Part shown: piece by piece, positions 251 through 21,001 of the stretch
Numbering within the stretch: the stretch's first letter is position 1
Layout: each line of letters opens with the position of its first letter
IMG/VR virus record: IMGVR_UViG_3300020578_002130
Span: 1-23,217 of that record
DNA length: 23,217 nt
Reading direction: 5' to 3' (one strand)
Source of the DNA: a virus
Translations under genes and position numbers: made by a program
Notes under the pieces: model-generated
Told to the model about the DNA's origin: nothing
The model's database searches: none
What the model saw: the letters and a program-made list of their open reading frames with translations, nothing else

Positions 251-1765
251 ATGTCAAATGTGTGTTTCGTGGTGCCAAGTAGTGCATCTAAAGCATATCA
301 AGATTTAGCAAAAACATATTCGGCAATTGAAATGCCCACATGGGCAGCATTGTTGGCTTCTGCTGTGCGTGTTAAAGGCCATGAACCATGTATATTGGAC
401 TTTGATGCTTGTCCTGCAACTGACGAAAATGCGGCAGAACAAATTGCATCATCAAAGCCAAAACTAGTAGTATTTGTTCTCTACGGACAAAATCCAAATT
501 CAGGCACCACAATGATGATTGGTGCCAAATCTCTAGTCACTCAACTAAAACTATCACATCCAAATTTAAAGACTGCATTTATTGGGTCACATACATCAGC
601 ATTACCACATGAAGTAATTCAATACAAATATGTTGATTTTGCTTTTATTAATGAGGGCGTTTACGGTCTTTTGGATTTATTAGAAACAGATTTAGAAAAT
701 GATTTAGATAATGTTCGTGGCATGTGGTATAAAAAACATGGACTTCCAAGACCAACAACAGGCGGATGCATAGTAAAGACCGATGATATGGATGTTGTAA
801 TGCCTGGTTATGCTTGGGATTTATTACCTAAAGATAAAAATTTATTAGACAATTATCGGGCTCATTATTGGCATACTAACTTTTTAGAGAAAGGTCGTAC
901 ACCATTTGCGGCAATTTATACATCATTAGGTTGCCAATTTGGTTGCAACTTCTGTATGATTAACATTGTAAACAGAACATCATATGACGAAGGCATTGTA
1001 TCTTCTGATAGTCGTGGTATGAGATTTTGGTCTCCAAAATTAATATTGAAAGAATTGGAATACTTGTATGAGAATGGTGTTAGAACAATTCGTCTTACAG
1101 ACGAGATGTTTTTTCTAAACAAAAAATATTATCAACCAATATTGCAAGGTATTGTGGATCGTGGCATGAAGTTTAACTTTTGGGCTTATGCTAGAGTAGA
1201 TTCTGTTCGTGAAGATCAATTAAAACTATTTAAAGATGCAGGTGTAAATTGGTTGGCACTTGGCATTGAATCAGGTAATCAACAGGTTCGTTTAGAAATT
1301 GACAAAGGTAGATTCAAACAAGTAAATATTCGTGAAGTGGTAAAACAAATTAAAGATGCCGATATTAATGTTCTTGGTAATTATATGTTTGGATTTCCAG
1401 AAGATACTAGAGAAACAATGCAAGAAACTTTAGATTTAGCTTTAGAGTTAAACTGTGAACACGCAAACTTCTATGCAGCAATGGCATTACCTGGTAGTCC
1501 ATTGTATATGGAAGCCAAAAATAATAATTGGGAATTGCCACAAACTTTTGATGAGTTTGCTTTCTTATCATATGATTGTAAACCATTAAGAACTAAATCG
1601 CTATCTGGTGCTGAAGTATTGAAGTTTCGTGATGATGCATGGCATACTTACTTTTCACACAAACCGTTTTTAGATTTGGTAGAAAATAAATTTGGAATAC
1701 AATCAAGACAAAATGTAGAAGAAATGTCAAAGATTCGTTTGAAAAGGAAAATATTAGGTGACTAA
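251..1765 (+). CDS. B12-binding-domain radical SAM enzyme
   Basis: 504 aa. The C-terminal two thirds is a radical SAM barrel: the cluster motif CX3CX2C is visible as C228, C232 and C235 (LGCQFGCNFC), followed by the expected GIES and MFGFPED segments near residues 338 and 378. Residues 1-180 look like the Rossmann-type cobalamin-binding domain found in the B12-dependent radical SAM class, but the base-off DxHxxG histidine motif is not seen, so cobalamin may bind base-on or not at all. Family members carry out methylations, ring contractions and other radical chemistry at unreactive carbons. It opens a sugar-type cluster and overlaps the next gene by 8 bases, so a role in modifying a sugar or lipid-linked glycan is inferred. 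The ATG at 251 follows a GTGAGG ribosome-binding site. Confidence 0.85.
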   Translation: MSNVCFVVPSSASKAYQDLAKTYSAIEMPTWAALLASAVRVKGHEPCILDFDACPATDENAAEQIASSKPKLVVFVLYGQNPNSGTTMMIGAKSLVTQLKLSHPNLKTAFIGSHTSALPHEVIQYKYVDFAFINEGVYGLLDLLETDLENDLDNVRGMWYKKHGLPRPTTGGCIVKTDDMDVVMPGYAWDLLPKDKNLLDNYRAHYWHTNFLEKGRTPFAAIYTSLGCQFGCNFCMINIVNRTSYDEGIVSSDSRGMRFWSPKLILKELEYLYENGVRTIRLTDEMFFLNKKYYQPILQGIVDRGMKFNFWAYARVDSVREDQLKLFKDAGVNWLALGIESGNQQVRLEIDKGRFKQVNIREVVKQIKDADINVLGNYMFGFPEDTRETMQETLDLALELNCEHANFYAAMALPGSPLYMEAKNNNWELPQTFDEFAFLSYDCKPLRTKSLSGAEVLKFRDDAWHTYFSHKPFLDLVENKFGIQSRQNVEEMSKIRLKRKILGD

Positions 1766-2357
1766 AGAAGAACTCATATCATTCGAAGAAAAAATGGCCG
1801 ATCATTTCAATAAGGCTAAAATTCGAGCACCAATTCATTTATACTATGGTAATGAAAAAGAATTGATTGATATATTTAAAAACATTCGTTCTAAAGATTG
1901 GGTATTTTGTTCTTGGCGTTCACATTATCAATGTTTACTTAAAGGTGTTCCACCTGTCGAATTAGAAAAAGATATACTAGAAGGTAAATCCATTTCTTTA
2001 TGTTATCCTAAGTATAACATATATTCTTCAGCGATTGTTGGTGGTAATATACCAATTGCAGTTGGTGCTGCTATGGCAATGAAACGAAAAAATATTGATA
2101 CTAAAGTTTATTGTTTCGTTGGTGATATGACAGCTGAAGCAGGTATATTTTCAGAAAATTTAAAATATAGTATGAATCACAAATTACCTATTAAATTTAT
2201 TGTCGAAGACAATGGCAAATCCGTTTGTACGAACACAAATGAAACATGGAGTATAGATAATTCTTCCTATAAAAATTTAAATAATGATTATGTTTATTAC
2301 TACGAATATGAAACAAAATATCCACATGCTGGTGCAGGAATGAGGGTACAATTTTGA
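1758..2357 (+). CDS. Thiamine-diphosphate enzyme, PP half (E1-alpha-like, short)
   Basis: 199 aa, GTG start inside the end of the preceding gene. The layout matches the cofactor (PP) half of the pyruvate/acetoin dehydrogenase E1-alpha family: an HYQCLLKGVP segment at 56-65, the IVGGNIPIAVGAA segment at 93-105, and the ThDP/Mg site GDM...EDNGKSV at 122-156. The usual GDG reads GDM here, which is uncommon, but the Asp and the downstream Asn are kept. Typical E1-alpha proteins are over 300 aa; this one lacks the C-terminal part. Together with the next gene it should make one heteromeric ThDP active site. In a sugar cluster, paired E1-like proteins are known to attach two-carbon branches to nucleotide sugars (for example AviB1/AviB2 in avilamycin), so a transketolase or carboligase role is more likely than pyruvate oxidation. 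Substrate unknown. Confidence 0.85.
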   Translation: MTKEELISFEEKMADHFNKAKIRAPIHLYYGNEKELIDIFKNIRSKDWVFCSWRSHYQCLLKGVPPVELEKDILEGKSISLCYPKYNIYSSAIVGGNIPIAVGAAMAMKRKNIDTKVYCFVGDMTAEAGIFSENLKYSMNHKLPIKFIVEDNGKSVCTNTNETWSIDNSSYKNLNNDYVYYYEYETKYPHAGAGMRVQF

Positions 2358-2884
2358 AATATTTTGAAGAACTTAAAACAGCGATGGAGATGTTATCAAA
2401 AGATCCAAGAGTAATGTTTATTGGCCAAGCAGTTGAGTATCCTGGCACTGCAATGTCAAATACACTAAAAGACATTTCAAAAGACCAATTATATGAATTG
2501 CCTGTTTTTGAAGATACACAAATGGGTATGTCTTTAGGTCTTGCACTTGCAGGTTTTATTCCGGTTAGCATTTATCCAAGATGGAATTTTTTAATATGTG
2601 CAACAAATCAACTTGTCAACCATGTTGATAAAATAACTCTAATGTCAGATTATAAACCAAGAATGATTATACGCACAAGTATTGGATCTGAAAGACCTTT
2701 GCATCCACAACATCAACATATTGGTGATTATACTGATGCATTTAAAATATTGTGTCCAAATATTGACATAATTAAATTAGAAGAACCAGAAGATATTGTG
2801 CCTGCTTATACAAAAGCTTATGAAAGAAAAGATGGCAAAGCTACTGTGTTGGTTGAATATGGAGATTTTTATAGCGAAAAATGA
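2354..2884 (+). CDS. Thiamine-diphosphate enzyme, PYR half (E1-beta/transketolase-like, short)
   Basis: 176 aa with a TTG start overlapping the previous stop by four bases (TTGA), so it is translationally coupled; a GAGGG ribosome-binding site lies at 2342-2346. The sequence resembles the N-terminal pyrimidine-binding domain of E1-beta: AMEMLSKDPRV near the start, the catalytic Glu expected at E53 in FEDTQMGMSLGLALAGF, and a GSERPLHPQHQH segment near 112-123. The usual C-terminal transketolase domain (about 120 aa) is absent. It must pair with the upstream PP half. Two short halves of this size resemble sulfopyruvate decarboxylase ComD/ComE in size, but the PP-then-PYR gene order and motifs are E1-like. 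The next gene begins at its stop codon. Confidence 0.85.
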   Translation: MKYFEELKTAMEMLSKDPRVMFIGQAVEYPGTAMSNTLKDISKDQLYELPVFEDTQMGMSLGLALAGFIPVSIYPRWNFLICATNQLVNHVDKITLMSDYKPRMIIRTSIGSERPLHPQHQHIGDYTDAFKILCPNIDIIKLEEPEDIVPAYTKAYERKDGKATVLVEYGDFYSEK

Positions 2885-3876
2885 TTATCACAAAAACACC
2901 TTATAGATTGTCGTTGTTTGGAGGCGGTACGGATTATCCAGCGTGGTTCAATGATAACCCAAGTATCTGTATATCAGCTGCAATGGCAAACTATTGTTAT
3001 TTGACAGTAAAAAAATTACCACCATTCTTCGATTACAAATCACGAATTATCTATTCACAGATAGAGAGTGTTCAATCAGTAGATGACATTAATCATCCAT
3101 CAGCACGAGCATGTTTACAGTATCTTGATATGAAAGATATCTCTGTGACACACGATGGTGATTTGCCTGCAAGGTCTGGTATTGGTTCTTCATCTTCTTT
3201 TACTGTTGGTCTATTACATGCACTCTATACAATGCGTGGCAATACAATAACAAAAGATGAATTGGCAAGACAAGCAATTCATGTTGAACAAAGCATCATT
3301 GGTGAAAATGTTGGCATACAAGACCAAATCATTGCTGCAAAAGGTGGCATACAAGTCATTCGTATGGGGCCAGGCTCAGGGATGTATTCATGGACATCCA
3401 ATACACTAAAAATTTCAAATGACTATATGAAAGAATTAGAATCACACATCATGCTTGGTTTCTCTGGTGTGTCTCGTCATGCCGAAGTGCAGTCAAAGAA
3501 AAAAGTAGAAAACATCAAACAAGGCATTAATCACAATCAATTACAACTCACGGCAAAATTAACAGAAGAAGCCTTAGAAATGCTTGTCAAACAAGAAGAA
3601 ATTATTACAATAGGTAATTTCTTAAATCTTGGTTGGAGATTAAAAAGAAAACTAGCAGAAGGTGTAACTGAGAAATGGATTGATGACATATATGAACAAT
3701 CAATTAAAGCAGGTGCGTTTGGTGGTAAATTGATGGGTGCTGGTGGCGGTGGGTTCTTTATGTTCTTAGTGCCATCTGAACACCAAGAAAAATTTAGAGA
3801 AGAAATGAAATCAATTAAAGTATGGGTACCTTTTAGATTTGATACAGAAGGTTCTCAATTAGTTTTGAATACATGA
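2881..3876 (+). CDS. hddA: GHMP kinase, D-glycero-D-manno-heptose 7-phosphate kinase-like
   Basis: 331 aa. All three GHMP kinase signatures are visible: the N-terminal GGGTDYP substrate motif at residues 14-20, the ATP-binding PARSGIGSSSS motif near 96-106, and the C-terminal MGAGGGGFF motif near 278-286. The GGGTDY start and overall length match HddA, which phosphorylates D-glycero-D-manno-heptose 7-phosphate at C1 on the way to GDP-heptose; related kinases act on other sugars, so the exact sugar is not certain. The ATG overlaps the TGA of the ThDP PYR-half gene (ATGA). No heptose isomerase (GmhA), phosphatase (GmhB) or guanylyltransferase (HddC) is visible in this window; they may lie upstream or be supplied by the host. 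Confidence 0.85.
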   Translation: MIITKTPYRLSLFGGGTDYPAWFNDNPSICISAAMANYCYLTVKKLPPFFDYKSRIIYSQIESVQSVDDINHPSARACLQYLDMKDISVTHDGDLPARSGIGSSSSFTVGLLHALYTMRGNTITKDELARQAIHVEQSIIGENVGIQDQIIAAKGGIQVIRMGPGSGMYSWTSNTLKISNDYMKELESHIMLGFSGVSRHAEVQSKKKVENIKQGINHNQLQLTAKLTEEALEMLVKQEEIITIGNFLNLGWRLKRKLAEGVTEKWIDDIYEQSIKAGAFGGKLMGAGGGGFFMFLVPSEHQEKFREEMKSIKVWVPFRFDTEGSQLVLNT

Positions 3877-3883
3877 GGTTAAA

Positions 3884-5053
3884 ATGAAATATCCTTTGAT
3901 GAGAAATAATATTACACGGCAAGATTTAGATGCCATGATTGAACATCTGAAACAAGATGATCCTATTTTAACAAATGGGCCTAAGTGCCGAGAGTTTGAA
4001 CAGGCCTGGTCTGATTGGTTAGGTGTAAAGTATTCCGTTTTTGTAAACTCTGGTGCATCTGCCAACCTTCTGTCAATAACAATGTTAAAGATAATGTATC
4101 CTGAAGGTGGTCAAATTATTGTGCCACCTCTGACATGGGTATCTGACATTGCATCGGTATTGCAAACAGGTTTTACTCCTGTGTTTGTTGACATTAATTT
4201 AGATACACTTGGTATGAATATTGATGCCATTTTGAATGCAATTACACCAAATACCCGTGCCGTATTTCTTTCACATATACAAGGCTTCAATGCGCTCACA
4301 GATGAATTGATAGTTGAATTAGAAAGAAGAAAGATTCATTTAATTGAAGATGTTTGTGAATCACATGGTGCAACCCATAATCGACAATTATGTGGTAGTT
4401 TTGGACTCATGTCAAATTTCTCATTCTACTATGCACACCACATGACTACAATTGAAGGTGGCATGGTGTGTACCAATGATGAAAAGATTTACAATACAAT
4501 TCGTATGCTAAGGTCACATGGCATGGTAAGAGAATGTGACAATGAAACAATGAAGGCAAACTATAAAGAACAAAATTCAGAACTCAATTCTGATTTCATC
4601 TTTGCTCATGCAGCATATAACATGCGTAATAATGAACTTGGCGGTATACTTGGTCTCAACCAGTTGCCAAATCTAGACCAAAATGTTATACTCCGAAATA
4701 GAAATCACGAAAGATTTTTAAGTAGATTAGACCAAAACAAATACTTCGTGGGTTTCAAATTAGTTGGGGCAAGCAACTATGCCTTCAATTTGATTGTCAA
4801 AGAAAAAGACAAAGAGTTTACAGAAAGACTGATGCAAAGAATGAGAGAAGAAGGTATTGAATTTAGACGAGGTAGTGCAGGCGGTGGTAATCAATTGAGA
4901 CAGCCATATCTGCAAAATATTCTGCCTAAAGAATACTATAAAAACTTTCCTAACACAGAACATGTTCACTTCTATGGATTTTATATTGGTAATTTTCCTG
5001 CAATGACAATTGAAGAAGTAGATGCAATCACAAATATATTGAATGGAGTATAA
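3884..5053 (+). CDS. DegT-family PMP-dependent sugar 3-dehydratase (ColD-like)
   Basis: 389 aa, DegT/DnrJ/EryC1/StrS fold: NSGASANLL near 55-63, the cofactor-binding LIEDVCESHGA at 153-163 and the EGGMV motif at 191-195. Where sugar aminotransferases carry the Schiff-base lysine, this protein has His185 (FSFYYAHHMTTIEGG). That replacement is the hallmark of the PMP-dependent 3-dehydratases (ColD, and E1/RfbH), which remove the C3 hydroxyl of a 4-keto-sugar. The CxCxxxC-type cysteine cluster that holds the 2Fe-2S centre in RfbH is not present, so the glutamate-driven ColD type fits better. The ATG at 3884 has a GAGG site 6 bases upstream. It implies a 3-deoxy sugar product. Confidence 0.88.
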   Translation: MKYPLMRNNITRQDLDAMIEHLKQDDPILTNGPKCREFEQAWSDWLGVKYSVFVNSGASANLLSITMLKIMYPEGGQIIVPPLTWVSDIASVLQTGFTPVFVDINLDTLGMNIDAILNAITPNTRAVFLSHIQGFNALTDELIVELERRKIHLIEDVCESHGATHNRQLCGSFGLMSNFSFYYAHHMTTIEGGMVCTNDEKIYNTIRMLRSHGMVRECDNETMKANYKEQNSELNSDFIFAHAAYNMRNNELGGILGLNQLPNLDQNVILRNRNHERFLSRLDQNKYFVGFKLVGASNYAFNLIVKEKDKEFTERLMQRMREEGIEFRRGSAGGGNQLRQPYLQNILPKEYYKNFPNTEHVHFYGFYIGNFPAMTIEEVDAITNILNGV

Positions 5054-5980
5054 ATGGCAAATATTTTAGTTACGGGTGGTGCAGGTTACATTGGCTCAAT
5101 GTTGGTGCCAGAACTTCTTAAAGATGGTCACAATGTAACCGTTTTAGATAATTTTATGTATCAACAAACATCACTCAATCATCTATGTAATCATTCAAAC
5201 TTTAGAGTATATAGAGGCGACATTCGTATTGGTGCAGATATCTTCCCTCTAATGAATCAAGCGGATGTTATTATTCCTTTGGCAGCTTATGTTGGTGCAC
5301 CATTGTGTGATAAAGACCCAATCGGTGCAACTACTACAAACAAAGATGCCATTTTTATGATGATTGAAAAGTTAAGTGACAATCAACTTGTATTAATGCC
5401 TACAACAAATAGTGCATATGGTACTGGTGATTATTGTACCGAAGAATCACCATTGAATCCTATTTCTAGATATGCCATAGATAAAGTAGAAGTAGAAAAA
5501 AGATTGATGCAACATCCTAATGCAATTAGTTTCAGACTTGCAACTGTATTTGGCATGTCACCAAGAATGAGAATTGATTTGTTGGTAAATGATATGACAT
5601 ATCGTGCTGTGAATGATGGCTTTGTTGTGTTGTTTGAATCACACTTTAAGAGAAACTACATTCATGTGATGGATGTTGTTCAGGCATTTCTATTGGCTAT
5701 TCGTAATCATATTATTATGAAAGGTAACATCTACAATGTTGGTCTTTCTTCTGCCAATGTCTCTAAGAAAGAATTGTGTGAAATCATTAAAGACCATGTA
5801 CCAAGATTTGAAATCATTGAAGCATCTATTGGGAAAGATAAAGACCAAAGAAACTACATTGTGTCTAATGAGAAGATAGAGAGTGTTGGTTTTACTCCTA
5901 AATATACATTGAATGATGGAGTAAAAGAACTGATTAAAGGTTACACAATGGTTAAGAATACAAAGTATGGTAATATCTAA
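5054..5980 (+). CDS. NAD-dependent epimerase/dehydratase (extended SDR)
   Basis: 308 aa. The Rossmann dinucleotide motif GGAGYIG (G8, G11, G14) is at the N-terminus, D32 after the second strand favours NAD(H), and the catalytic YxxxK is Y140/K144 with Ser120 in TTNSAYG. These are the features of nucleotide-sugar epimerases and 4-ketoreductases. It starts directly after the stop of the 3-dehydratase gene and closes the sugar cluster. A plausible job is epimerising or reducing the 4-keto sugar formed by the other enzymes, as ColC does after ColD. The substrate and stereochemistry cannot be read from sequence. Confidence 0.88.
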   Translation: MANILVTGGAGYIGSMLVPELLKDGHNVTVLDNFMYQQTSLNHLCNHSNFRVYRGDIRIGADIFPLMNQADVIIPLAAYVGAPLCDKDPIGATTTNKDAIFMMIEKLSDNQLVLMPTTNSAYGTGDYCTEESPLNPISRYAIDKVEVEKRLMQHPNAISFRLATVFGMSPRMRIDLLVNDMTYRAVNDGFVVLFESHFKRNYIHVMDVVQAFLLAIRNHIIMKGNIYNVGLSSANVSKKELCEIIKDHVPRFEIIEASIGKDKDQRNYIVSNEKIESVGFTPKYTLNDGVKELIKGYTMVKNTKYGNI

Positions 5981-12856: not shown

Positions 12857-12888
12857 TGCTTGACAATTGCCTTTTTTTCTGTTATAAT
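12857..12888 (+). promoter_or_regulatory. Consensus sigma70 promoter for the zincin/VWA gene
   Basis: TTGACA at 12860-12865, a 17-base spacer and TATAAT at 12883-12888, preceded by TGC and followed by GAT. Both boxes match the consensus perfectly. The expected start near 12895 leaves a 5' leader of about 24 bases carrying a GGAG site. Confidence 0.85.
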
Positions 12889-12918
12889 GATTAAATAATA
12901 GTGAATGGAGTATTATAC

Positions 12919-15279: not shown

Positions 15280-15311
15280 TGCTTGACAAACATCCTCTTT
15301 TCTGATATAAT
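15280..15311 (+). promoter_or_regulatory. Consensus sigma70 promoter for the AAA ATPase gene
   Basis: TTGACA at 15283-15288, a 17-base spacer and TATAAT at 15306-15311; TGC precedes the -35 box and GAT follows the -10 box, as at 12857. The leader runs to an AGGAG site about 12 bases before the ATG at 15346. Confidence 0.85.
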
Positions 15312-15345: not shown

Positions 15346-16530
15346 ATGTCTAGTCGTGCCGAACTCAAACAACAATTTATTGATGCTCTTATTTCTACTG
15401 GTAAGGGTACTATTACCCGTACCGAACTGAAAGAGATTGCAACAAAAATTGGTCTTGGTTCTGTAGGGTTCTTTACCAAAGAAGAATCGAATCGTGTCGG
15501 TCGTGGTAAGTACCGAGTTCCTTCTACCGCAATTTCAATGCAAGGGCAAGTAATTCAAATGCCAAAACAACAAGTAGAAAAATCTGGCAGTCGCATTCAA
15601 AATGTGACTACGGCTCTAGATGAAACAAATTTGGTGCCTGCACAATACAAAAACTATGTGCCGTTTGGTAACTACGAAGATGTTTTGTCCATCGTAATGG
15701 CGAATCGTTTCTTTCCTGTTTTCATTTCTGGTCATTCTGGTAATGGTAAAACAATGTCTATCGAACAGGCTTGTGCCAAGGCAAAACGCAAATTCGTTTG
15801 TGTATCAATGACACCTGAAACCGATGAGAGTGATTTGCTTGGCAACTATGTTCTCATTGATGGTAATATGGAGTGGCGTGATGGTCCTGTGACTACTGCT
15901 GCTCGACAAGGTGCCGTTCTCTGCATCGATGAGATTGATTATGGTGCTCAAAATCTTTCCAGTCTTCAGCGAGTGCTCGAAGGCAAACCATTTATGTTGA
16001 AGAAGAAAGGCGAAGTAATTACACCGGCGCCTGGCTTTACTGTGTTTGCGACTGCGAATACAAAAGGTAAAGGTTCTGACGATGGTCGTTATATGTTTAC
16101 CAATGTGTTGAATGAGGCTTTTCTCGAACGCTTTCGTACCACAATGGAACAAGACTTTCCTCCTGCCAAGACTGAACGCAAAATCATTGAGAAAGAACTG
16201 GTATCTGCCGGTCGTGCTGACGATGACTTTGCTGAGAAACTTGTTACTTGGGCAGATGTTATTCGTAAAACATTCGCTGATGGCGGTTGCGATGAAGTGA
16301 TTTCTACTCGCCGTCTTGTGCATATCGTAGAAACCTATGGTATCTTTGGCGATAAGATGAAGGCAATTACTCTCTGTCTGAATCGTTTTGATGACGATAC
16401 CAAAATGTCATTCATTGACTTGTATACCAAAGTTGATGCGGGTGCTACTGCCGAAGAAATTTTGGCACCTGTAGTTGAACCCGAAGAAACAAAGGTAGAA
16501 ATGCGTAGTGAAGAAGAACAACCTTTTTAA
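15346..16530 (+). CDS. cobS: MoxR/CobS-type AAA+ ATPase
   Basis: 394 aa. Walker A GHSGNGKT is at 129-136, Walker B LCIDEID at 192-198, the sensor-1 Asn in FATAN at 234-238 and a probable arginine finger in LERFR at 260-264; a DESDLLG segment near 160-166 is typical of the MoxR/CobS group. The first 75 residues look like a small helical, possibly DNA- or partner-binding domain. In cyanophages this family is annotated CobS, the ATPase of cobaltochelatase, but no other cobalamin gene is present here. Its probable partner is the VWA/zincin protein directly upstream. The C-terminus is acidic (EPEETKVEMRSEEEQ). It has its own promoter and a strong terminator. Confidence 0.88.
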   Translation: MSSRAELKQQFIDALISTGKGTITRTELKEIATKIGLGSVGFFTKEESNRVGRGKYRVPSTAISMQGQVIQMPKQQVEKSGSRIQNVTTALDETNLVPAQYKNYVPFGNYEDVLSIVMANRFFPVFISGHSGNGKTMSIEQACAKAKRKFVCVSMTPETDESDLLGNYVLIDGNMEWRDGPVTTAARQGAVLCIDEIDYGAQNLSSLQRVLEGKPFMLKKKGEVITPAPGFTVFATANTKGKGSDDGRYMFTNVLNEAFLERFRTTMEQDFPPAKTERKIIEKELVSAGRADDDFAEKLVTWADVIRKTFADGGCDEVISTRRLVHIVETYGIFGDKMKAITLCLNRFDDDTKMSFIDLYTKVDAGATAEEILAPVVEPEETKVEMRSEEEQPF

Positions 16531-16547: not shown

Positions 16548-16576
16548 GACCCATCGGTAACGATGGGTCTTTTTTT
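16548..16576 (+). terminator. Strong rho-independent terminator after the AAA ATPase gene
   Basis: Perfect 9-bp stem GACCCATCG (16548-16556) and CGATGGGTC (16561-16569) with a GTAA (GNRA-type) tetraloop, followed by seven T. Confidence 0.92.
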
Positions 16577-16596: not shown

Positions 16597-16625
16597 TTGA
16601 CATACACATAAAAGTATAATATAAT
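16597..16625 (+). promoter_or_regulatory. Consensus sigma70 promoter for the small DNA-binding-type gene
   Basis: TTGACA at 16597-16602, a 17-base spacer and TATAAT at 16620-16625. A second TATAAT at 16615-16620 has only a 12-base spacer and is less likely. The transcript would start near 16632. The -35 box is preceded by GTG rather than TGC. Confidence 0.82.
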
Positions 16626-16631
16626 TGTAAC

Positions 16632-16690
16632 AAGATTTGAGAGAACGGTCGCCTCTCAAATGATTTTTTAACTGCGGCCTTTTTAATCTT
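16632..16690 (+). promoter_or_regulatory. Structured 5' leader RNA with pseudoknot or attenuator potential
   Basis: The leader begins at the predicted transcript start. A 9-bp stem pairs ATTTGAGAG (16635-16643) with CTCTCAAAT (16653-16661), followed by six T at 16664-16669, like a terminator. The hairpin loop contains GGTCGC (16647-16652), which can pair with GCGGCC at 16674-16679 with one G-U pair, making an H-type pseudoknot; that downstream strand is itself followed by five T. AAGATT at 16632-16637 can pair with AATCTT at 16685-16690, just before the ribosome-binding site. I match it to no known riboswitch. Confidence 0.55.
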
Positions 16691-16706
16691 TATGGAGTAT
16701 TTCGTA

Positions 16707-16979
16707 ATGTCTGTTAAATCTAAAGTCCTTTCTTATCTGTCGAAAGATTCTTCTTACAACACCCTGACTGCTAACAAGATGCAGTCAATGTTCGGTGCCG
16801 CCAATCCTTCTGCCGTGATTGACGAACTGCGTAAAGATGGTCATGCCATCTATCTGAACACTCGCATCAATGCGAACGGTGAGAAAGTTTCTTTCTATCG
16901 CCTTGGCACTCCTACCAAGCGCATGATTGCTGCTGGCATTCGTGCTCTGCGTGAGAACGGAGTCCGTGCTTTTGCCTAA
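16707..16979 (+). CDS. Small basic winged-helix-like protein, probably highly expressed
   Basis: 90 aa from the ATG at 16707; the in-frame ATG at 16692 is rejected because GGAG at 16694-16697 is the ribosome-binding site for 16707. The sequence suggests a small wHTH domain: a helix SVKSKVLSYLSK, then NTLTANKMQSMFG and NPSAVIDELRKDGH as the helix-turn-helix, and a wing with YLNTRINANGEKVSFYRLG. The C-terminus is basic. Codon use differs from neighbours, with many CTG, CGT/CGC, AAC, ACC and GCC codons, as in strongly expressed genes. Together with its own promoter, structured leader and terminator, this suggests an abundant early DNA-binding protein. I do not recognise a named family. Confidence 0.72.
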   Translation: MSVKSKVLSYLSKDSSYNTLTANKMQSMFGAANPSAVIDELRKDGHAIYLNTRINANGEKVSFYRLGTPTKRMIAAGIRALRENGVRAFA

Positions 16980-16998: not shown

Positions 16999-17037
16999 AG
17001 AGGAAGTAATACATATAGGTGTTACTTCCTCTTTTTT
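16999..17037 (+). terminator. Strong rho-independent terminator after the small wHTH-like gene
   Basis: Perfect 11-bp stem AGAGGAAGTAA (16999-17009) with TTACTTCCTCT (17022-17032), a 12-base loop, and T through 17037. Confidence 0.92.
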
Positions 17038-20596: not shown

Positions 20597-21001
20597 ATGG
20601 TAGACTTGACTAAATTCATTGAGGTAAGTCTCAATGAACAAGATGATTTTTTGAAGGTGAGAGAGACACTTACTCGTATTGGTGTTTCTTCCCGTAAAGA
20701 AAGAGTGCTGTATCAATCGTGCCATATCTTACACAAGCAAGGCAGATATTATATTGTTCATTTCAAAGAGCTGTTTGCCTTGGATGGTAAACCATCGAAC
20801 ATTACAGAGAACGACATACAAAGAAGAAACGCAATTGCTAATTTGTTAGAGGAATGGGGACTGGTAAAGATATTGAATCCTAGACTTTTAGAAGACAATA
20901 TTGCCCCACTTCATCAGATAAAAATTATATCATTCAAAGAGAAAGATGATTGGGAGTTAGTTGCCAAATATAACATTGGCAAAAAGTCCACTGATTACTA
21001 A
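20597..21001 (+). CDS. regA: Translational repressor RegA
   Basis: 134 aa (T4 RegA 122). The core is very close to T4 RegA: DFLKVRETLTRIGV, then ERVLYQSCHILHKQGRYYIVHFKEL, LLEEWGLVKI and ISFKEKDDWELVAKYNIG in the same order. RegA binds the start regions of early phage mRNAs, including those for gp44 and gp45 in T4, and blocks initiation. It has a slightly longer C-terminus (KKSTDY) and a longer N-terminus than T4. AGGGA at 20586-20590 is the ribosome-binding site. It follows gp62 by one base, the standard T4 order 45-44-62-regA. Confidence 0.95.
   Translation: MVDLTKFIEVSLNEQDDFLKVRETLTRIGVSSRKERVLYQSCHILHKQGRYYIVHFKELFALDGKPSNITENDIQRRNAIANLLEEWGLVKILNPRLLEDNIAPLHQIKIISFKEKDDWELVAKYNIGKKSTDY

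Follow-up and report, generated by a model that had tools for sequence, protein, structure and literature searches.

In bacteriophage T4, a pseudoknot in the leader of gene 32 nucleates autogenous repression, and of all T4 mRNAs that of gene 32 is the most stable (PMC3014915, PMC535899). We analysed a 23,217-base virus record (the window, meaning this whole stretch of DNA) and found a leader that resembles the gene 32 leaders of T4, T2 and RB69: it belongs to a T4-type phage, its predicted fold is an H-type pseudoknot with coaxial stems followed by an A+U-rich spacer and a Shine-Dalgarno sequence, and it precedes a gene for a putative nucleic-acid-binding protein (PMC3014915, PMC535899). Unlike gene 32, the gene here encodes a winged-helix protein (PHROG 4973) and not a single-stranded-DNA-binding protein. 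The pseudoknot lies at the RNA 5′ terminus, 17–31 nt from the AUG, with a first stem (S1) of usually 9–10 bp; there is no UUAAA repeat array, and protein binding is a prediction in this case.

Stem-loops of the ompA/papA type, which stabilize bacterial mRNA, likewise place a paired element directly at the start of the transcript, ahead of the ribosome site (PMC3997798). The leader described here differs in being a pseudoknot whose second helix (S2) is strictly maintained, and its stabilizing role is putative. Structured 5′-UTR elements of T4-like phages also include the manA and wcaG RNA motifs, known from cyanophages and marine metagenomes (PMC2864571). In contrast to these motifs, the leader matches no Rfam family (with Rfam 15, no family was found at the gathering threshold, and none for the leader at E up to 5), and the associated genes differ. 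Small pseudoknot folds just before the Shine-Dalgarno sequence, as in this leader, are known from the preQ1-I, preQ1-II and SAM-II riboswitches; here, in contrast, there is no conserved ligand pocket and the Shine-Dalgarno sequence lies outside the fold.

In the open-access literature searched, we found no gene of this sort described as having a pseudoknot leader. We regard the leader as a new RNA element that belongs, as a variant, to the known kind 'phage mRNA leader pseudoknot'; it is not classed as a gene 32 operator, since it precedes a different gene from the one that defines that operator. It adds a second phage leader pseudoknot, one that sits on another gene, covaries strongly and is widely distributed among uncultured T4-like phages; a compact, testable RNA–protein pair and a ready covariance model come with it. 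It would show whether leader pseudoknots are reused to check abundant DNA-binding proteins, or simply to armour early messages.

Anatomy of the leader and its gene

The genes of the window place its source among the T4-like phages: they include a sliding-clamp homologue, homologues of the two clamp-loader subunits and a RegA homologue. The nearest clamp loader among named phages is found in marine cyanophages (~57–59% identity). The leader and its flanks comprise the following features.

16548–16576, + strand: intrinsic terminator of the upstream AAA/CobS-like gene (hairpin 16548–16569 plus T-run), isolating the leader–gene unit
16597–16625, + strand: sigma70-type promoter, TTGACA-17-TATAAT (12/12 matches); a promoter also precedes the leader in relatives
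16632–16633, + strand: predicted transcription start, deduced from the −10 position; the RNA would begin 2–3 nt before S1
16635–16643, + strand: S1 5′ strand, ATTTGAGAG, pairing with CTCTCAAAT at 16653–16661
16644–16646, + strand: loop L1, AAC (1–5 nt in relatives)
16647–16652, + strand: S2 5′ strand, GGTCGC, pairing with GCGGCC at 16674–16679 with one G-U
16653–16661, + strand: S1 3′ strand, CTCTCAAAT, directly abutting S2
16662–16673, + strand: loop L3, 12 nt (10–19 nt in relatives; usually U-rich, sequence not conserved)
16674–16679, + strand: S2 3′ strand, GCGGCC, pairing with the S2 5′ strand
16680–16693, + strand: U-rich single-stranded spacer to the Shine-Dalgarno sequence (mostly 7–14 nt in relatives)
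16694–16697, + strand: Shine-Dalgarno sequence GGAG, found in relatives' leaders too
16707–16979, + strand: coding sequence of the 90-aa basic winged-helix protein, PHROG 4973 (the mechanical ORF start, 16692, is not conserved)
16999–17037, + strand: predicted intrinsic terminator ending the winged-helix mRNA (hairpin 16999–17032 plus T-run)

Positions 16635–16679, between the promoter and the Shine-Dalgarno sequence of the winged-helix gene, thus correspond to an H-type RNA pseudoknot with an S1 of 9 bp, an L1 of 3 nt, an S2 of 6 bp and an L3 of 12 nt, and with 0 nt between S1 and S2. In keeping with the definition of an H-type fold, the hairpin loop pairs with a downstream strand, the helices fit coaxial stacking and both covary. 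The initial annotation had described a 9-bp hairpin with a T6 tail whose loop can pair downstream, and all of its coordinates proved correct: ATTTGAGAG pairs with CTCTCAAAT, T6 follows at 16664–16669, and the loop GGTCGC pairs with GCGGCC, after which T5 occupies 16680–16684. Complementarity of the leader ends had also been pointed out. The letters are present (AAGATT, 16632–16637; AATCTT, 16685–16690), but the pairing is conserved in the closest relatives only; it overlaps S1 bases and lies outside the conserved structure.

Among relatives, S1 usually has 9–10 bp, L1 1–5 nt, S2 6–8 bp and L3 10–19 nt, and the junction between the stems (L2) was 0 nt in 50 of the 53 leaders measured and 1 nt in the rest. 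S1 starts mostly 7–9 nt past the −10 hexamer, about +1 to +3 of the RNA, so that the pseudoknot would begin within a few nucleotides of the predicted 5′ end. The end of S2 lies 17–31 nt upstream of the AUG and typically 7–14 nt upstream of the Shine-Dalgarno sequence, the spacer being usually U-rich and free of UUAAA-type repeat arrays. Every leader (43/43) has a C-G pair where S1 meets S2, and no loop sequence conservation was seen among the relatives' leaders. An in-frame upstream start at 16692 was considered and rejected, as it is absent or out of frame in relatives and represents just Shine-Dalgarno context.

Since terminators lie on either side of the promoter and the 90-aa ORF, a monocistronic mRNA of ~400 nt is predicted. 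A terminator-like hairpin 3′ of the winged-helix gene was detected in 38/40 relatives and was visible by eye in the other two.

The encoded protein (9.9 kDa, pI 10.2) is modelled as a basic winged-helix, DNA-binding-like protein. AlphaFold2, run on 39 aligned relatives, gave a winged helix with a mean pLDDT of 88.4. In Foldseek searches with this model, the PDB matches were weak and to winged-helix DNA-binding proteins (best E 0.008); in BFVD, the matches were phage 'helix-turn-helix domain' proteins, with E down to 6e-7. A PDB sequence search gave no meaningful match, and a homologue search of GTDB genomes found nothing. The gene has the strongest codon bias among the window's ORFs (CTG for 71% of Leu, CGY for 100% of Arg); in a 172-kb relative, where the gene ranks 33 of 200 by C-ending codons, the bias is no more than moderate. 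A separate small phage protein family (L130–L147, MNQKQRVLDYL...) shares the N-terminal helix-turn-helix pattern and has no such leader.

Conservation, covariation and distribution of the two stems

The initial annotation had judged the nested complementarities to exceed chance expectation. For the leader alone this holds to a modest degree, its pseudoknot score being reached by 2/1000 dinucleotide shuffles; the nested-fold energy is unexceptional (z −0.80 for 16610–16720, z −1.23 for 16632–16694). Single-sequence energy was discarded as an uninformative guide: nested folding even favours S2 together with the outer AAGATT/AATCTT pairing, and that pairing is not retained among relatives.

The reality of the leader was settled by its homologues. 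Protein searches of IMG/VR yielded 76, 70 and 80 loci, the last being the best 80 of 382 relatives. An enumerating scanner found the two-stem H-type arrangement in 88/88 distinct leaders of homologous genes, a set comprising all distinct copies preceded by 80 nt or more of DNA. Held-out leaders, which had not been used in defining the structure, scored at least 13 in 14/14 cases, as against 8/223 other upstream regions and 11/300 dinucleotide shuffles. Dozens of related phages from lakes and the sea share the element, with its letters changing in matched pairs.

When 38 leaders were aligned with plain MAFFT, the structure derived from the window was paired in 97.8% of cells, compared with 37–45% when the partner was slid by 1–3 columns. 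Two-sided changes occurred at 14/15 pairs, and 0/500 shuffles equalled any covariation measure of this alignment. With 43 leaders, S1 was paired in 95.1% of cells, with two-sided changes at all 9 pairs, and S2 in 100%. Taken together, the two alignments give 97% of pairs formed, against about 37–47% on sliding. Because alignment cells are not events, we mapped the pair states on the gene tree by parsimony; 59 double compensatory changes were counted (24 in S1 and 35 in S2), numbers that are approximate since the tree rests on a short gene. No broken state was found in S2 among 42 inferred changes, and the slid controls gave 5–11 double paired changes, with >100 broken in all. Single-sided changes produced G-U far more often than A-C (36:5 overall; 27:5 in S1 and 9:0 in S2), which indicates selection on RNA and not on a DNA operator. 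The leader stays with the winged-helix gene where the upstream neighbour differs (e.g. L013, L043, L074).

These comparative sequence data show the two-stem structure and its conservation at the RNA level, and make it almost certain that the leader genuinely serves the encoded small DNA-binding protein as a control or protection element. That the leader is able to form a pseudoknot, as had been noted, is thus strongly supported by covariation of both stems. Compensatory changes in homologous leaders were looked for and found within the gene clade, in which no homologous gene lacks the leader; genes without the pseudoknot occur only among far homologues (33–52% identity to the protein of the window).

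A covariance model of S1 and its flanks gave one significant match per record in 12/12 gene-carrying phage records, including the 172-kb contig, and no further copies in these records beyond weak chance-level matches. No comparable 5′ element was found on other sigma70-type leaders in the window or the 172-kb contig. The element thus occurs once per phage, on this winged-helix gene only. High-scoring control upstream regions were isolated matches and were dismissed; the best (17.2, before 17054) combines the terminator stem with a G-U-rich chance helix.

In Methylophilales phage Melnitz-3 (L255, 1393–1430) and Stenotrophomonas phage DLP6 (L077, 2374–2398), 5′-terminal hairpins of 10 bp and 9 bp, respectively, follow promoter-like sequences without an S2, and in HTVC008M the homologous gene follows an S21-like ORF and has no such leader. 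The protein family therefore does not need the pseudoknot. From these three cultured relatives, the pseudoknot looks like a lineage-specific elaboration of a 5′-terminal hairpin, and the hairpin of Melnitz and DLP6 is possibly the ancestral state.

Candidate functions of the leader

We propose, with a probability of roughly 45%, that the 5′-end pseudoknot of this early monocistronic mRNA acts in cis as a protein-binding, probably autogenous translational operator, by analogy with gene 32. S1 would form first during transcription and S2 would then lock it. A protein could dock on the folded element; the most likely candidate is the basic winged-helix protein that the mRNA encodes, when present in excess of its DNA targets. 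Once bound, it would mask the U-rich spacer and the Shine-Dalgarno sequence and so block ribosome entry, as in T4 gene 32; in addition, the same fold might hold the 5′ end in paired form and prolong the life of the mRNA. That S2 is so strictly maintained speaks for a specific three-dimensional target and not merely a paired 5′ end, and confinement of the element to one gene favours autogenous control. The basic DNA-binding-like product, the gene 32-like layout of pseudoknot, A+U-rich spacer and ribosome site, and the codon bias, strongest in the window, also count in favour of the operator. Against it, the loops show no base-specific recognition signal beyond the invariant junction C-G, the pseudoknot ends nearer the AUG than in gene 32, the Shine-Dalgarno sequence is not hidden by the fold, far homologues manage without the pseudoknot, and the codon bias of the 172-kb relative is moderate. 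More specifically, and at somewhat less than even odds, the leaders may form a new phage pseudoknot family, unrelated to gene 32, in which the winged-helix protein recognizes RNA shape and shuts off its own translation. If true, this would be a second, independently evolved case of phage autogenous control via an mRNA pseudoknot, using a fold normally tied to DNA.

Of the roles listed in the initial annotation, an autoregulatory site and an mRNA cap are the two leading readings, while the attenuator fails and the riboswitch is unlikely. The serious alternative to the operator, held to be somewhat less probable, is that the pseudoknot is a 5′-terminal cap whose sole job is high, long-lasting expression: RppH and 5′-end-dependent RNase E would act poorly on the paired-off 5′ end, and the ribosome site would be held open. 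The exact 5′-terminal position of S1 (mostly 7–9 nt after the −10 box) argues for this, and the monocistronic mRNA with its conserved 3′ terminator hairpin and the promoter-proximal hairpins of Melnitz (10 bp) and DLP6 (9 bp) without S2 point the same way; moreover, an appended 5′ hairpin stabilizes bla mRNA and impedes RppH (PMC3997798). However, a plain stem-loop should suffice for protection, yet S2 is unbroken in 42 inferred changes, and other strong-promoter leaders of the same phages have no such cap. An operator and a protective cap can coexist, the T4 gene 32 mRNA being repressed as well as unusually stable (PMC3014915). Binding of a host or other phage protein, such as a ribosomal protein or RegA, instead of the encoded protein seems improbable. 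Structure-based recognition would be equally compatible with it and a regA homologue lies nearby (20597–21001), but confinement of the element to one gene favours autogenous control, and T4 RegA binds unstructured initiation regions.

A compact H-type riboswitch for a small molecule, as exemplified by preQ1 or SAM-II, would have a fold of similar size just 5′ of the Shine-Dalgarno sequence. It is nevertheless very unlikely, given relatives without conserved loop or pocket nucleotides, the lack of an Rfam match even at E up to 5, a Shine-Dalgarno sequence outside the fold and a gene that is not metabolic. That the winged-helix protein binds S1 as a DNA dyad and represses its own promoter is suggested by the perfect palindrome just 3′ of the promoter, but the G-U versus A-C asymmetry of 36:5 and the second, interleaved covarying helix, which has no role in a DNA dyad, leave it hardly probable. 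The proposed attenuator, switching between two terminator-like hairpins, can be all but dismissed. It drew on T6 after S1 and T5 after S2 in the window alone; U-runs are absent in several relatives (L048 ACTATGG, L128 AAAAAATGG, L074), and no conserved U-tract directly after a G+C-rich-based hairpin was seen in relatives' leaders. The S1 base is A/U-rich, the wrong way round for an intrinsic terminator, and the stems covary independently and are joined with 0–1 nt (53/53), an arrangement in which they coexist (L2 = 0), as coaxial stacking requires.

Other observations in the window

The position of the terminator at 16999–17032 is conserved across relatives, and its GAGGA-type 5′ arm is kept with compensatory changes. 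Two further 12/12 sigma70 promoters lie directly 5′ of a peptidase-like gene (promoter 12860–12888, gene at 12901) and of the AAA/CobS-like gene (promoter 15283–15311, gene at 15346), both with short, unstructured leaders. The segment 21007–21068, which directly precedes a small heat-shock-like ORF (21063), matches the ROSE_3 heat-shock RNA thermometer weakly and below threshold (28.2 bits against a gathering threshold of 43, E 0.08); its predicted fold is unexceptional (z −1.05). Judged by translations alone, a run of ORFs at 251–5980 resembles sugar or surface-modification genes (B12/radical-SAM-like, an E1-like pair, GHMP-kinase-like, aminotransferase-like and epimerase-like).
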